From Parasphaerochaeta coccoides DSM 17374 (GTDB taxonomy: Bacteria; Spirochaetota; Spirochaetia; Sphaerochaetales; Sphaerochaetaceae): a stretch of 64,000 bases of DNA. The stretch spans positions 1,612,001 to 1,676,000 of the forward strand of contig NC_015436.1 in the NCBI RefSeq assembly GCF_000208385.1. The letters run 5' to 3'. The notes under the pieces were generated by a model, which worked only from the letters and a program-made list of their open reading frames with translations, had not been told where the DNA came from and searched no databases. Shown piece by piece: positions 15,477-44,488 of the stretch. How positions within the stretch are numbered: the first letter of the stretch is position 1; every line of letters starts with the position of its first letter. Made by a program: the position numbers and the translations under genes.

Positions 15477-15511
<35 letters not shown>

Positions 15512-18056: not shown

Positions 18057-20375
18057 ATGAGAGAGAATACATTAATTATTACAATTCTTATGAGCATCAT
18101 GATTCTCTTTGTCGCTCTTGTTTCATGCGAGGGCAAAGTGCGTGTTTCGCACGCCACCGACGTGCGCTTCTCCACGGAGATAGGACGCAAAGCCTCCGCT
18201 GACTCCGGCTGGGAACCCAATGACGAAGTCGGCATCTACATGGTGAATCATGGCGCCCTGGCAGCTTATGCCGCCACGGAGCGTGCCAACCAACCCTACA
18301 AGGCTGACATAGCCTCCCGAACCTCCGGCTTCACTCCTGTTGATGTCTCCCACCCCTTACAGTGGGATGACATCTCCAACCCTGCCACTACACACTTTGA
18401 CTTCATCGCCTACTATCCCTATGCATCATCCATCGCTGATACCACCGCCCTGCCCATTAATATCTATTCGGCTGGTACCGGGGAACAGGATACCGGAAAG
18501 GCGGACTTCCTGTGGGGGCATAGCAAGAACGTGAGCACATACGCTGGCGGTGTCCAGAACAATACCTCAACGGTACGGCTGAAACTTGACCACGCTCTTT
18601 CCCGTCTGCTGGTCACCATCAAGCCAAGCACGACTGTTGACGCCACGGCTATCAATGCTGCCACCGGTGGATTCACCGTCACGGTCACAGGCACAAGCAC
18701 ACAAGCCACGATCAATCTTGATACTGGAGCCGTATCTGTTCCTGGCAATGGTGCGCCTATCCGCATGAAGGACATTTCCGCCGACACGCTTACCGCCATG
18801 GAAAGAGCCGCAGGAAAGCGCCAGTTTGAAGGTGTGTTGATACCTACGGCTCACTCCACTGCTTTATTGAATGCCCTGGAACTGGAGTTTGTCCTGACTG
18901 ATGGTAGTGGCACTGATACTGCATACACATGGAAAGCGACGTCCGTAGCGGACAAAGATAAACACCTGATTCACTTTGACGCGGGCAAACAGCATGTCTA
19001 CACCATGACCCTGAATACGTCTGACGATGTGGTCGCCGTCGCCGCAATCGAAATTGGAATCGAGGACTGGGACACCGGGGACAGTATAAACACAGACGCG
19101 CTCAAGGTGTACTGCCTCTCCTTTGATGGCAATAACGCGACAAGCGGCACGGCTCCGGGAAAGATGTACGCTCATGCCGGAAGTCCAATCACGGTGCCAG
19201 GTTCTGGGACACTGGATAAAACCGGGCATTATTACTTCGGGGGATGGAATACGACGTCTGACGGCACGGGAGTCCGGTATTCCGCAGGTGACTCCTTCAC
19301 CATGCCTGCTCATGACGTGACACTGTATACGTTCTGGGCGGTGAAACTCAAAGCTGTCACCCTCGGAGGCTATCACACACTGATGCTGAAAGAGGACGAC
19401 ACGCTCTGGGCAACAGGAAACAACGCCTTTGGTCAATTCGGTGATGGTACCACTGAGAATGCAACAAACACACCTAAACAAATCAACTCTGATGTCACGG
19501 CTGTCTCCGCCGGAATCTATCACACGATGATCCTGAAAAAGGACGGCACGCTCTGGGCAACAGGACTCAACGATCGTGGACAACTGGGTGACGGCTCCCT
19601 TACAGACAGAAGTACGCCCGTGAAGGTTATGGATGATGTCAAGGAAGTCTCCGCTGGACTCTGGCACACAATGATCCTGAAGAAGGACGGCACTCTCTGG
19701 GCGACAGGGGAGAACGAATATGGACAACTTGGTGATGGTACTTCAGGTGATCTGAACAACAAAAGCACGCCCGTACAGGTCAGTTCTGATGTTGCGGCTG
19801 TCTCCGCCGGACATCATCACATGATGTTCCTGAAGAAGGACGGTACACTTTGGGGGTCTGGATTCAATACATCTGGTCAACTGGGTGACGGCTCTCTGAC
19901 AGACATAAGCACACCCGTGAAGGTTATGGCTGATGTCAAGGAAGTCTTCGCCGGAAGCTATCACACGTTTATCGTGAAGAAGGACGGCACGCTCTGGGGG
20001 ACAGGAGGCAACGATCATGGCGAATTGGGTGTCAATGATATAATCGACAAACCCGCGTTCGTGCAAGTCATGGCCATCATGGGTACTGATGTCGCATCAG
20101 TCTCTGGCGGAATCCGCAACACGATATTCCTGAAGAAGGACGGGACGCTCTGGGCGACAGGAGACAATCATCCTCAGTTTGACATCACCGATCCGGCTGA
20201 TATATTAACGCCCGTTCAAGTCATGACTGATGCCGCAGCAGTATCCACTGATGGGGTTTGCACGCTGTTTGTGAAGAAGGACGGGACGCTCTGGGGAACT
20301 GGATTCAACAAACATGGTCAACTGGGTGACGGCACTACGACAGACAGAATTACGCCCGTGCAGATTATATTCTGA
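18057..20375 (+). CDS. Fimbrillin-like/B-repeat/RCC1 lipoprotein, copy 2 (fixed start)
   Basis: 772 residues from ATG 18057, which has GAGGA 8 nt upstream. The start reads MRENTLIITILMSIMILFV and ends in lipobox ALVSC (Cys24). The ATGAGAGAG here is what the long GA tracts of copies 1 and 3 replace, so this copy looks locked ON. Domains: fimbrillin-like about 30-355, one InlB/Listeria-Bacteroides B-repeat about 365-440 (YCLSFDGNNATSGTAPGKMYAH...FGGWNTTSDGTG...TLYTFW), then seven RCC1 repeats, the last few more diverged (one reads NHPQFDITDPADI). Likely anchored in a membrane by its lipid and exposed. No partner or chaperone gene is adjacent. Confidence 0.85.
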   Translation: MRENTLIITILMSIMILFVALVSCEGKVRVSHATDVRFSTEIGRKASADSGWEPNDEVGIYMVNHGALAAYAATERANQPYKADIASRTSGFTPVDVSHPLQWDDISNPATTHFDFIAYYPYASSIADTTALPINIYSAGTGEQDTGKADFLWGHSKNVSTYAGGVQNNTSTVRLKLDHALSRLLVTIKPSTTVDATAINAATGGFTVTVTGTSTQATINLDTGAVSVPGNGAPIRMKDISADTLTAMERAAGKRQFEGVLIPTAHSTALLNALELEFVLTDGSGTDTAYTWKATSVADKDKHLIHFDAGKQHVYTMTLNTSDDVVAVAAIEIGIEDWDTGDSINTDALKVYCLSFDGNNATSGTAPGKMYAHAGSPITVPGSGTLDKTGHYYFGGWNTTSDGTGVRYSAGDSFTMPAHDVTLYTFWAVKLKAVTLGGYHTLMLKEDDTLWATGNNAFGQFGDGTTENATNTPKQINSDVTAVSAGIYHTMILKKDGTLWATGLNDRGQLGDGSLTDRSTPVKVMDDVKEVSAGLWHTMILKKDGTLWATGENEYGQLGDGTSGDLNNKSTPVQVSSDVAAVSAGHHHMMFLKKDGTLWGSGFNTSGQLGDGSLTDISTPVKVMADVKEVFAGSYHTFIVKKDGTLWGTGGNDHGELGVNDIIDKPAFVQVMAIMGTDVASVSGGIRNTIFLKKDGTLWATGDNHPQFDITDPADILTPVQVMTDAAAVSTDGVCTLFVKKDGTLWGTGFNKHGQLGDGTTTDRITPVQIIF

Positions 20376-28416: not shown

Positions 28417-28559
28417 TTTACACGCTTAAAAACGAATCAACGACCGCTATTAACATCTAAAATCACCAAATAACCCGAAAGTATTATATGGTTTTCTCTG
28501 CTTTTCATGCAAAATCATACCTTTGGGTAATAGCTTTCTGCCATCACTACGTTTACACT
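28417..28559 (+). promoter_or_regulatory. Conserved 5' element of lipoprotein copy 3
   Basis: A 143-nt near-duplicate of 15263-15405. The inverted-repeat arms are ACCCGAAAGTAT (28473-28484) and ATACCTTTGGGT (28517-28528). The region between the operon promoter and this element (about 28206-28416) is AT-rich and holds no gene that I can see. Confidence 0.75.
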
Positions 28560-28625: not shown

Positions 28626-28665
<40 letters not shown>

Positions 28666-28680
28666 CTGAAAGAGCTGCAT

Positions 28681-30840
28681 ATGAACAAATCTAGCAGGTC
28701 AGGTTTTGTGGTTCTTACGACCATTCTGATGCTACTTGTCGCCCTTATTTCATGCGACAACAAACTGAATGTTTCACATACCAATGCAGTGCGCTTCTCC
28801 ACGGAGATAGGGCGCAAGGCCACCGCAAATTCCGAATGGCAAGCCGATGATGACGTCGGCATTTACATGCTGGAACATGGTACCGGCACGGCAGCTACTG
28901 CCGCCTCAGAACGTGCAAACAGACACTACACGGCTGACATGGCCTCCCAGACTTCCGGCTTCTCTCCTGTTGATAATGCCAACACCTTGAAGTGGAATGA
29001 CATTGCCGCTAATGCCAACGACACGTTCGACTTCATCGCCTACTATCCCTATGATGAAAACATCTCTGACCCTACGGCCGTGGACATAGACATCAACCGG
29101 AGTTCCTCGGAACAGATGACCGGGACGGCTGACTTCCTGTGGGGACGCACCGACAACATACAGAACAATACCTCGACGGTGCATCTGAAGCTTGACCATA
29201 TGTTCTCCCGCCTGATTGTCAACATCTCTCCCAGCACGACCGTCGATGCGGACGCCATCACGGGTGGCGTACTTTCTGCTATGGTCGAAGGCACAAGCAC
29301 GCAAGGCACGTTCAACCTGGATACCGGAGCCTTGTCAGTCACAAGTTCCGTTGAGGGAATCATCATGAAGAACATCTCCCACACCCTCAGCCAAGCAGAG
29401 CAGGATGCGGGCAAGCGCAGGTTTGAAGCGGTACTGATACCTGTGGTTCACTCAGATGTCCTGCTGGATGCTTTGAAACTGGAATTTACCCTGGGCTCTG
29501 ATACATACACATGGGCAGCGAATTCCGTAGCGACCTCTGACCAGGGCAAGATTCATTTTGACAAAGGCAAGCAGCATGTCTACAACATGACGCTCAATAC
29601 CAATGACAATGAAGTCGCCGTTGCCGCTATTGAGATTGAGATACAGGACTGGGACACCGGGGACGGCATAAACGCCCCTGCTGTCAAGCTGGGAGTCAAG
29701 AAAGTCTCCGCCGGAAATTTCCACACGATGATCCTGAAAACGGACGGCACGCTCTGGGCGACAGGACGGAATAATTTTGGTCAACTGGGGGTCGGTACTT
29801 CAGGTGATTCGAACAACAAAAGCACGCCCGTGCAGGTCATGACTGATGTCAAGGCTGTCTCCACCGGAAATTATTACACGATGATCCTGAAGAAGGACGG
29901 CACGCTCTGGGCGACTGGAGCCAACGGAGAGGGTCAACTGGGTGACGGCACTACGACCAACAGAACTACTCCCGTGCAGGTCAAGGCCAGTACCGCCGCC
30001 AACGACTTCATGACTGATGTCAAGGAAGTCTCCGCCGGATACTTCCATACGATGATAGTGAAAAAGGATGGGACGCTCTGGGCGACAGGATTCAACTCTC
30101 AGGGTCAACTGGGTGTCGGTGATAATGACGCTAGAAGCACGCCCGTGTATGTCATGGAGAATGTCGCGGCTGTCTCCGCCAGAGGTTATTACACGATAAT
30201 CCTGAAGAAGGACGGCACGCTCTGGGCGACTGGACAGAATGGCTATGGTCAACTGGGTGACGGCACTACGACCGACAGAATCACGCCCGTACAGGTCAAG
30301 GCAAGTATCGCTCCCAACGACTTCATGACTGATGTCAAGGCCGTCTCTGCCGGATACAATCACACGTTGATCCTGAAGAAGGACGGGACGCTCTGGGCGA
30401 CGGGATACAACTATTATGGTCAACTGGGTGACGGCACTTCGGGTACAGTGAATAACAAAAGCACGCCCGTGCAGGTCTGGGCTTCTACCGATGGTTTAGT
30501 GAAAATGACTGATGTCGCGGCGGTCTCCGCCGGATACGCTCACACGTTGATCCTGAAGAAGGACGGGACGCTCTGGGCGACTGGATACAACCTTCACGGT
30601 CAACTGGGTCTGGGTAACAGTGGGGCGGGAACCAACAGAAACATACCCGAGCGGGTTAAGGCTAGTCCCGATGACTTCATGACTGATGTCGCGGATGTTT
30701 TTGCTGGATACTACCATACGATGATAGTGAAGAAGGATGTCACGCTCTGGGTGACTGGAGACAACGAATATGGTCAACTGGGTCTGGGTAACAGCGGGGA
30801 GGGAACCAGCAAAAACATACCCGAACAGGTAGTTTTCTGA
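28681..30840 (+). CDS. Fimbrillin-like/RCC1-repeat lipoprotein, copy 3 (phase-variable)
   Basis: 719 residues from ATG 28681. Here the internal start gives a passable signal peptide, MNKSSRSGFVVLTTILMLLV with lipobox ALISC (Cys25), and GAAAGAG lies 6 nt upstream, so some expression without the GA-tract ATG is possible. Fimbrillin-like domain about 35-330, seven RCC1 repeats about 340-719. Long DNA stretches match copy 1 almost exactly (for example the block ending HVYNMTLNT and the repeat core), showing recent duplication or gene conversion. The last repeat has KKDVTLWVTG instead of KKDGTLWATG. Converges on mglC. Confidence 0.82.
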   Translation: MNKSSRSGFVVLTTILMLLVALISCDNKLNVSHTNAVRFSTEIGRKATANSEWQADDDVGIYMLEHGTGTAATAASERANRHYTADMASQTSGFSPVDNANTLKWNDIAANANDTFDFIAYYPYDENISDPTAVDIDINRSSSEQMTGTADFLWGRTDNIQNNTSTVHLKLDHMFSRLIVNISPSTTVDADAITGGVLSAMVEGTSTQGTFNLDTGALSVTSSVEGIIMKNISHTLSQAEQDAGKRRFEAVLIPVVHSDVLLDALKLEFTLGSDTYTWAANSVATSDQGKIHFDKGKQHVYNMTLNTNDNEVAVAAIEIEIQDWDTGDGINAPAVKLGVKKVSAGNFHTMILKTDGTLWATGRNNFGQLGVGTSGDSNNKSTPVQVMTDVKAVSTGNYYTMILKKDGTLWATGANGEGQLGDGTTTNRTTPVQVKASTAANDFMTDVKEVSAGYFHTMIVKKDGTLWATGFNSQGQLGVGDNDARSTPVYVMENVAAVSARGYYTIILKKDGTLWATGQNGYGQLGDGTTTDRITPVQVKASIAPNDFMTDVKAVSAGYNHTLILKKDGTLWATGYNYYGQLGDGTSGTVNNKSTPVQVWASTDGLVKMTDVAAVSAGYAHTLILKKDGTLWATGYNLHGQLGLGNSGAGTNRNIPERVKASPDDFMTDVADVFAGYYHTMIVKKDVTLWVTGDNEYGQLGLGNSGEGTSKNIPEQVVF

Positions 30841-41816: not shown

Positions 41817-41933
41817 AATCGTCACTATTACCGATATCCCTTACATTAACTCATCAATTCATCATGCTTCGCCAGATTAACCAATCACTTCATTATATTT
41901 GATGAATGATTTTTGGTTTTCATGGAAAAATAA

Positions 41934-41941
41934 GGGGGGGG
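41934..41941 (+). repeat. G8 homopolymer at the ribosome binding site of copy 4
   Basis: Eight G residues preceded by TAA and followed by AAAGTG, the presumed start codon. When the four copies are lined up on their start codons the G-run sits where the others have AAGGAG or GAGGA. A change in run length would change the spacing or strength of the ribosome site. Confidence 0.85.
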
Positions 41942-41944
41942 AAA

Positions 41945-44488
41945 GTGAGAAAAAACAGCATTGTGTTTGTAAGCATCTTCATGGTGTTTTTCGTCTTTGT
42001 TGCATGTTCCGGCGAAGTAGAGGTTCCGCACGCCAGCAACGTGCGCTTCACCACGGAGATCGGACGCAAGGTCATGGCTGACTCCGCATGGCAAGCCGGT
42101 GATGAAGTCGGCATCTACATGGTGGAAGCCGGTGAGGACGTGGCTACTGTCGCCGCGACCGACCGTGACAATGTGCAGTACGTGGCAGATACGGCGGGCA
42201 TCAACTTCTCCGCCTTCTCCCCTGTTGACGCCTCCAACCCCTTGAAGTGGGATGACAACTCCAACCCTGCCATCACACACTTTGACTTCATCGCCTATTA
42301 TCCCTATGTATCGCCCATCGCTGATACCACGGCTCTGCCCATACATGTCTATCCCCTTGGTTCCGGGGAACAGGATACCGGAAAGGCTGACTTCCTATGG
42401 GGACGCACCGACACTGTACAGAACAATACCCCAACGGTACGACTGAAGCTTGAGCACATGCTCTCCCGTTTGATTGTCAACCTTGGGCCAAGTACCACCA
42501 TTGATAAGGATGCCATCAACGGTGGTACGCTTGTCGCCACTGTCACAGGCTTGAACACGAAGACCTCAATCAATCTGAATGACGGAACCTTGGGCACTCC
42601 TGGCGACGTTGTTCCTATTGTCATGAAGGACATCTCCGGCACGCTCACGGATGCGGAAAGAAGTGCGGGGAACCGCCGTTTTGAGACTGTGCTGATACCT
42701 GTGGACAACGCTACTGCTCTGGCTGCCTTGCAACTGGAGTTTGCCCTGACTGATGGTAGTACTGATACATACACATGGGCAGCGACTTCCGTAGCGACCT
42801 CTGACCAGGGCAAGATTCACTTTGACGCGGGAAAGCAGCATGTCTACAACATGACGCTCAATACGTCTGATAATGAAGTCGCCGTTGCCGCCATCCAGAT
42901 TGAGATAAAGGACCAAGACACCGGAAGTTTGGTGAACGGGGCAGCGGAAAAGGCATACAGCCTCACCTTTGGAGCCAACGGAGCCACGAGAGGCAGTGCG
43001 CCGGGACGGATGTATGCTCATAAGGGAAGCCAGGTCACACTGCCGACTCCTGGAACGTTGGAAAAGAATCTCCATTACTTCTACGGATGGAATACTGAGA
43101 CTGATGGCAGCGGAGATTCATATGCCGTTGGAGACTCTTTCGTGATTCCTGGGCAGGATGTGACACTATATGCAATCTGGGTGGAGAACCAATACAGCGT
43201 CTCCTTTGATGGCAACGGAGCCACGGGAGGCAATACTCCGGGACGGATATATGCTCATAAGGGAAGCAAAGTCACACTGTCGGCTCCGGGAACATTGGAA
43301 AAGGACATCCATTACTTCTACGGATGGAATACTCTGCCTAATGGCAACGGAACCCAATATGCCGTTGGCGAGTCCTTCACCATGCCCGCCAATGATGTGA
43401 CGTTGTATGCGCGGTGGCTGGTGAAGATCAAGGCAGTCTCCGCCGGAAAGTCCCATACGATGATTCTGAAGATGGACGGCACGCTCTGGGCGACAGGAGA
43501 CAACTATTATGGTCAACTGGGTGACAAAACGATGCCCACCAGAACTACTCCCGTGCGGGTGAGTTTGGATGTCGCGGCAGTCTCCGCCGGAGAGTCCCAT
43601 ACGATGATTTTGAAGAAGAACGGCACGCTCTGGGCGACTGGACGCAACAATTATGGCCAACTGGGTGACGCCACTCGGATCAGCAGATATATTCCCGTGC
43701 AAGTCAAGGTTAGTACCAGTCTTACCGACTTCATGACTGATGTCGTGGCTGTCTCCACCGGGGAGCGTCATACGATGATTCTGAAGAAGGACGGCACGCT
43801 CTGGGCGACTGGAGACAACGAATTTGGTCAAGTGGGTGACAAAACGATGACCACCAAAACTACTCCCGTGCGGATGGGTTTGGATGTCGCGGCTGTCTCC
43901 GCCGGAGCCACCCATACGATGATCCTGAAGAAGGACGGCACGCTCTGGGCGACTGGACGCAACTATTCTGGGCAATTGGGTGACGACACTCGGACCGACA
44001 GAAGAATGCCCGTGCTGGTCATGTCCATAGGTTCTGATGTCGCGGCTGTCTCCGCTGGAGCCACCCATACGATGATCCTGAAGAAGGACGGCACGCTCTG
44101 GGCGACTGGAGACAACAGCTATGGTCAACTGGGCATCGGTAATAATGAAGACAAAAACACGCCTGTGAAGGTCATGACTGATGTCAAGGCCGTCTCTGCC
44201 GGGGTCTCCCACACGATGATCCTGAAGAAGGACGGCACGCTCTGGGCGACTGGAAACAACGAATATGGTCAGCTGGGCCTGGGTGACAGCGGTTCGAGAA
44301 CTCACAGATGCACACCCAAGCAGGTCACGTCCATGGGTTCTGATGTCGCGGAAGTCTCCGCCGGAGCTGAGCTCACGATGATTTTGAAGAAGGACGGCAC
44401 GCTCTGGGCGACGGGGCGGAACCGTTTTGGTCAACGGGGTGATGGCGATACGTCCGAAAAAACAACGCCTGTACAGATTATTTTTTGA
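41945..44488 (+). CDS. Fimbrillin-like/two B-repeat/RCC1 lipoprotein, copy 4
   Basis: 847 residues from GTG 41945, the position matching the ATG of copies 1-3 (all are followed by AGA). The start, translated with its initiating Met, is MRKNSIVFVSIFMVFF, with lipobox VFVAC. The frame is also open from ATG 41906 through the G8 run, without a ribosome site. Domains: fimbrillin-like about 30-335; two B-repeats about 345-500 (YSLTFGANGATRGSAPGRMYAH, YSVSFDGNGATGGNTPGRIYAH, both ending TLYA.W); seven RCC1 repeats to the end. Largest copy. Same predicted location and role as the others. Confidence 0.83.
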   Translation: MRKNSIVFVSIFMVFFVFVACSGEVEVPHASNVRFTTEIGRKVMADSAWQAGDEVGIYMVEAGEDVATVAATDRDNVQYVADTAGINFSAFSPVDASNPLKWDDNSNPAITHFDFIAYYPYVSPIADTTALPIHVYPLGSGEQDTGKADFLWGRTDTVQNNTPTVRLKLEHMLSRLIVNLGPSTTIDKDAINGGTLVATVTGLNTKTSINLNDGTLGTPGDVVPIVMKDISGTLTDAERSAGNRRFETVLIPVDNATALAALQLEFALTDGSTDTYTWAATSVATSDQGKIHFDAGKQHVYNMTLNTSDNEVAVAAIQIEIKDQDTGSLVNGAAEKAYSLTFGANGATRGSAPGRMYAHKGSQVTLPTPGTLEKNLHYFYGWNTETDGSGDSYAVGDSFVIPGQDVTLYAIWVENQYSVSFDGNGATGGNTPGRIYAHKGSKVTLSAPGTLEKDIHYFYGWNTLPNGNGTQYAVGESFTMPANDVTLYARWLVKIKAVSAGKSHTMILKMDGTLWATGDNYYGQLGDKTMPTRTTPVRVSLDVAAVSAGESHTMILKKNGTLWATGRNNYGQLGDATRISRYIPVQVKVSTSLTDFMTDVVAVSTGERHTMILKKDGTLWATGDNEFGQVGDKTMTTKTTPVRMGLDVAAVSAGATHTMILKKDGTLWATGRNYSGQLGDDTRTDRRMPVLVMSIGSDVAAVSAGATHTMILKKDGTLWATGDNSYGQLGIGNNEDKNTPVKVMTDVKAVSAGVSHTMILKKDGTLWATGNNEYGQLGLGDSGSRTHRCTPKQVTSMGSDVAEVSAGAELTMILKKDGTLWATGRNRFGQRGDGDTSEKTTPVQIIF

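Follow-up and report, generated by a model that had tools for sequence, protein, structure and literature searches.

A G8 Run Ahead of a GTG-Start Lipoprotein Gene of Parasphaerochaeta coccoides Is Probably a Length-Buffered Shine-Dalgarno Site

Introduction

Runs of guanine upstream of genes have been described in two systems close to the one analysed here. In Helicobacter pylori, a G-repeat in the tlpB leader is read by the small RNA RepG, and this produces graded output (PMC8295292). In Treponema pallidum, poly-G tracts of at least 8 vary within isolates, and those tracts that have been characterised act in promoters (PMC7864442). Two of the T. pallidum tracts listed there have their first base 7 nt ahead of the annotated start; the one at tp0381 varied widely in length and the one at tp0986 hardly did (PMC7864442).

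The subject of this study is a run of eight guanines (G8) that precedes a lipoprotein gene. Like the tlpB repeat it is a G homopolymer in the mRNA leader of a surface-related gene, but a known small RNA reads the repeat in H. pylori, whereas the run here is the ribosome site itself. With the T. pallidum tracts it has in common a spirochaete host and G runs of at least 8 upstream of outer-membrane protein genes; it differs in that the characterised T. pallidum tracts act in the promoter, at transcription, and the G8 sits on the ribosome site.

Parasphaerochaeta coccoides DSM 17374 is a spirochaete of the termite gut with a single-contig genome of 2,227,296 bases. The stretch that we analysed, referred to as the window, comprises bases 1612001-1676000 (64,000 nucleotides) and includes four copies of the lipoprotein family, here numbered 1 to 4 (Table 1). 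A previous sequence-only reading of the window had asked whether the G8 ahead of copy 4 is a translational switch.

Results

The G8 run and the start codon of copy 4

Bases 41932-41947 read AA GGGGGGGG AAA GTG, with AAA at 41942-41944 and GTG at 41945-41947. The reading frame of copy 4 is intact from this GTG, and the predicted protein has a lipoprotein signal peptide with a VFVAC lipobox, a fimbrillin-like domain (PF13149), two List_Bact repeats (PF09479) and RCC1 repeats. Alignment of copies 1-4 at their starts (GTG AGA AAA AAC AGC in copy 4, ATG AGA GAG AAT ACA in copy 2 and ATG AGA GAG AGA in copies 1 and 3) confirmed that the G8 occupies the ribosome-site position, three nucleotides before the GTG. 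The run spans positions -11 to -4, where copies 1-3 have AAGGAA, GAGG or AAGGAG.

The genome's own 16S tail ends CACCUCCUUUCU (written GGATCACCTCCTTTCT in the pairing test), and its CCUCC pairs with the tract. AAGGGGGG pairs with this 16S 3' end at -9.2 kcal/mol, as expected of a Shine-Dalgarno site. This pairing, together with the nine sister copies described below, supports the proposal that the GTG start has this run as its Shine-Dalgarno site; the G8 is real and serves as the ribosome-binding site of copy 4. It resembles the site of any GTG-started gene in being purine-rich, in its CCUCC pairing, in its suitable spacing and in its conservation among sisters, but differs from the usual site in consisting of one base type, with many pairing registers possible.

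A different arrangement would apply if translation began at the ATG at 41906, which shares the frame of the lipoprotein. The run would then be coding (AGG GGG GGG), and slippage in it would shift the frame and make an ON/OFF switch. However, no ribosome site was found upstream of this ATG, and the signal peptide is already complete from the GTG. The GTG is retained in all nine GTG-start sister copies, whereas the matching ATG is out of frame in four of them (1800951, 1803615, 1806269 and 1515635) because of small, one-base changes in the length of a non-coding stretch. The GTG is the likely start because the ATG at 41906 has no ribosome site and its frame is lost in those four copies, and we infer that the GTG is used for initiation in the cell. 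A coding G run was rejected on these grounds, and we hold it to be most improbable. A proven start at 41906, which the sequence-only reading had named as a result that would count against its own proposal, is unlikely for the same reasons. The G8 is likewise not an in-frame repeat switch, as it precedes the GTG and the upstream ATG has lost its frame in four of the nine copies.

Table 1. Features of the window that bear on the G8 run and the lipoprotein family (positions are those of the window).
Feature	Position	Strand	Basis or remark
Copy 1: ATG followed by a 30-nt AG repeat, out of the lipoprotein frame, OFF as read	15477..15509	+	
Copy 2: ATG AGA GAG AAT start without repeat tract	18057..20375	+	
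Copy 3: ATG followed by a 32-nt AG repeat, not in frame, OFF when read from that ATG	28626..28660	+	
Family-wide inverted repeat TAACCCGAAAGTA ... TACTTTCGGGTAA	41769..41818	+	upstream of copy 4
Upstream in-frame extension from ATG 41906, judged non-coding	41906..41944	+	frame and ribosome-site check
13-nt purine tract AAGGGGGGGGAAA	41932..41944	+	comparison with sister copies
G8 homopolymer, Shine-Dalgarno core	41934..41941	+	sequence; pairing with own 16S tail ending CACCUCCUUUCU
Lipoprotein gene copy 4, GTG start, 847 codons	41945..44488	+	translation, domain matches

The purine tract in the nine GTG-start copies

Copy 4 is one of nine GTG-start copies in the genome that have no GA tract. 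In eight of the nine, the GTG is preceded by a purine tract of 12-13 nt, and the G-runs in those eight are 2, 3, 3, 4, 4, 5, 6 and 8, that of copy 4 being the longest. The nine tracts are AAGGGGAAAAAAA, AAGGGTAAAAAAA (two copies), AAGGGGGAAAAA, AAGGAGGGGAAA, AAGGAGAAAAAA, AGGGGGGAAAAA, AAGGGGGGGGAAA and the divergent GGAGGAAGGTAAAAA. The aligned spacing to the start codon is 4-5 nt, which is suitable for a Shine-Dalgarno site, and all tracts except the two AAGGGTAAAAAAA copies showed clear pairing, with energies of about -5 to -9.5 kcal/mol and copy 4 near the strong end.

The tracts differ mostly by A/G substitutions and their length is nearly constant. In a comparison that excluded the divergent copy at 1515635, divergence per nucleotide was 0.25 in the tract versus 0.10-0.13 in the flanks, i.e., about twofold. 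We infer that the tract is subject to drift and not to selection for slippage; a twofold divergence is also expected from slippage, however, and counts against the drift reading. The G8 would have arisen in a purine tract in which A and G freely replace each other while the length hardly changes, and one single-base slip probably contributed to it.

Rarity and placement of long G runs

This genome has fewer long G/C runs than expected. A 464 kb sample contained one run of at least 8 versus ~14 expected from dinucleotide frequencies, and genome-wide there were 12 versus ~67 expected. With its eight identical bases, the G8 thus belongs to a class of homopolymers that is rarer than expected, and in length and rarity it is like the homopolymers of phase-variable (contingency) loci. 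Homologues of MutS and MutL, which usually lower mononucleotide slippage, are encoded in the genome. The premise that G runs of at least 8 are slippage sites held up to the extent that the G8 has a length at which runs slip elsewhere, in Treponema pallidum (PMC7864442).

Just before the start codon of a long open reading frame lie 3 of the 12 runs of at least 8, versus 2.8% of G4-G6 runs (binomial P ~0.004, or 0.036 if the two family loci are counted once; the runs at trmB and at the relic were placed by eye). The three are the G8 of copy 4, a G9 at the same place in a dead family copy (244353, minus strand) whose frame is broken at codon 9, and a G9 a few bases before the ATG of the housekeeping gene trmB. 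Because a pseudogene holds one of the three and another precedes a housekeeping gene, a run before a start is not a mark of switching. Part of the excess is a matter of position, ribosome sites in the sister copies being G-rich already. In view of the strong depletion in the genome, the G8 and G9 in the two family leaders could be tolerated or favoured there, which counts against the reading preferred here. Two other long runs are possible coding slippage sites: a G10 at genome positions 1393286-1393295, inside a 201-codon open reading frame, and a G8 at 541733-541740, inside a pyrrolidone-carboxylate-peptidase-like open reading frame.

Graded post-transcriptional control, e.g., by a putative C/U-rich small RNA acting on the run as RepG does, has a precedent in 5' leader G runs of 7-16 (PMC8295292). 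At copy 4, however, the run lies on the ribosome site, and a long run is present in only one intact copy of the family. We regard such control as very doubtful.

The dead copy with the G9 (~244220-244360, minus strand) is one of two dead GTG-start copies; in it the signal peptide is fused to the final residues of the RCC1 end, and the other, at ~1919220, breaks off when its signal peptide has barely begun. Codons 2-4 of copy 4 (41948-41956) contain an A6 run. The dead copy at 244353 is frameshifted because its matching A run is one A shorter, and the A6 run of copy 4 could be a frame-shifting site too.

Predicted effect of run length on initiation

The calculation of pairing and spacing energies covered G3 to G13 and used two lengths of the 16S tail and three spacing penalties. 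Its spacing parameters and its conversion factor of 0.45 are those of the published RBS Calculator; they are generic and not fitted to spirochaetes. The combined energy was -1.7 kcal/mol for G5, -7.1 for G6, -8.7 for G7, -9.4 for G8, -9.6 for G9 and -9.5 for G12. Relative to G8, predicted initiation was 0.73-0.85 for G7, 0.35-0.71 for G6 and 0.03-0.48 for G5, and 1.1-2.5-fold for G9. With the longer 16S tail, G9-G13 raised predicted output 1.1- to 5-fold. The minimum free energy of the local RNA was -10.9 kcal/mol at every length from G4 to G12, and mRNA folding that depends on the G run was rejected on that basis.

In this model, pairing at G8 is near a plateau that extends from G7 up, and output would be flat around G8. 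The homopolymer would buffer its own spacing, because several pairing registers are available and a good one exists at any length of at least G7. A strong loss is predicted to need contraction to G5 or less, i.e., the loss of at least three Gs. The suggestion that a change of length would alter the spacing or occupancy of the ribosome site enough to switch the gene was therefore not supported, given the plateau, the self-buffering, the constant folding energy and the size of the contraction needed.

Were the G8 a translational switch, its slippage would move or mask the Shine-Dalgarno site, turn copy 4 up or down and make a second type of switch beside the GA tracts. The position and length of the run suit this, as does the variation of spirochaete poly-G tracts of at least 8 within isolates (PMC7864442); moreover, only three A separate the run from the GTG, and G5 is predicted at 3-48% initiation. 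Against this, the predicted change in output for a one-base step is no more than ~2.5-fold and a good register is retained from G7 up, a like run precedes both a dead copy and trmB, and in the other eight sister copies the run is shorter. We consider a switch of this kind unlikely. Also unlikely, in our estimation, is that the purine tract of the GTG subgroup is a one-sided translational rheostat, in which A/G substitution would set the strength of each copy and contraction of the G run to 5 or fewer before the three A would nearly silence it. The G8 may well slip, but the effect should be small, and the run probably does not work as an on/off switch in the manner of the GA repeats.

An inverted repeat upstream of the family genes

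The inverted repeat upstream of copy 4 is also present at 28471-28531 and ahead of most family copies, with various start types, and its second arm is often TACCTTTGGGTAA. The conserved upstream element sits ~130-175 nt before the start. The arm spacing takes two values that are exactly 10 bases (one DNA turn) apart, and for this reason a protein-binding operator would fit better than an RNA hairpin. The repeat is a probable operator or promoter element. One copy of it precedes a MATE-like transporter gene (genome 1166067).

These observations bear on whether the G8 is a promoter-type poly-G, as at the tpr genes of Treponema pallidum, with a transcript starting just past the run. The tprL transcript begins four bases after its poly-G, and 8 versus 10 G alters reporter output (PMC7864442). 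A start just past the G8, however, would leave almost no leader, yet all sister copies retain a ribosome site. The region yielded no sigma-70-like promoter, nor any promoter or terminator match near copy 4, and the conserved element lies well upstream of the run. A promoter role for the G8 is thus very improbable.

The lipoprotein family

Approximately 42 copies in the genome have the same N-terminal domain as copy 4. In 24 of these an AG/GA repeat of 19-95 nt comes directly after the ATG (copies 1 and 3 of the window and 22 further loci elsewhere), and a smaller group, which includes copy 2, has an ATG AGA GAG start without a long tract. The GA tracts place 6 of the 24 copies in the lipoprotein frame and 9 in each of the other two frames. 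This split is close to random, as would be expected for slipping ON/OFF genes, and the GA-tract copies would represent a large ON/OFF gene family that is apparently undescribed. In copy 3 (28626-28700) and its MNKSS sister copies, an internal ATG (28681 in copy 3) opens the lipoprotein frame near the stop of the shifted frame, and so "OFF" copies of the MNKSS subtype may be translated by re-initiation.

That the G8 is distinct from these GA tracts, as had been claimed, is borne out by the lack of a GA tract in the subgroup of copy 4. The GA-tract copies are simple-sequence contingency genes, with the repeat inside the reading frame, of the same protein family and genome, but their tracts shift the frame after the ATG, whereas the G8 is outside the reading frame.

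In a search of 139 genomes of the same taxonomic family, the N-terminal domain turned up in this genome only, and a GTDB scan for relatives gave RCC1-type matches only. The literature collection that was searched contained no paper linking Sphaerochaeta with phase variation.

Discussion

Overall, we think it probable that the G8 is the buffered Shine-Dalgarno site of a GTG-start member of this large, species-restricted family, in which the gain or loss of one G would be a weak tuning at most. The run would act as a strong ribosome site, with small changes in length taken up by its many pairing registers, and copy 4 would for that reason be expected to be translated whenever it is transcribed. 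If the less likely rheostat were true, the family would possess, in addition to the ON/OFF GA tracts, a second mode that is graded.

This analysis distinguishes the GA tracts after the ATG, which are a true contingency device, from a look-alike within one family, and the modelled energies suggest why a homopolymer ribosome site should tolerate small changes in length. The more interesting result is the family itself, with ~42 lipoprotein genes and 24 GA-tract switches in one spirochaete, and an N-terminal domain absent from the other genomes of the 139-genome set.
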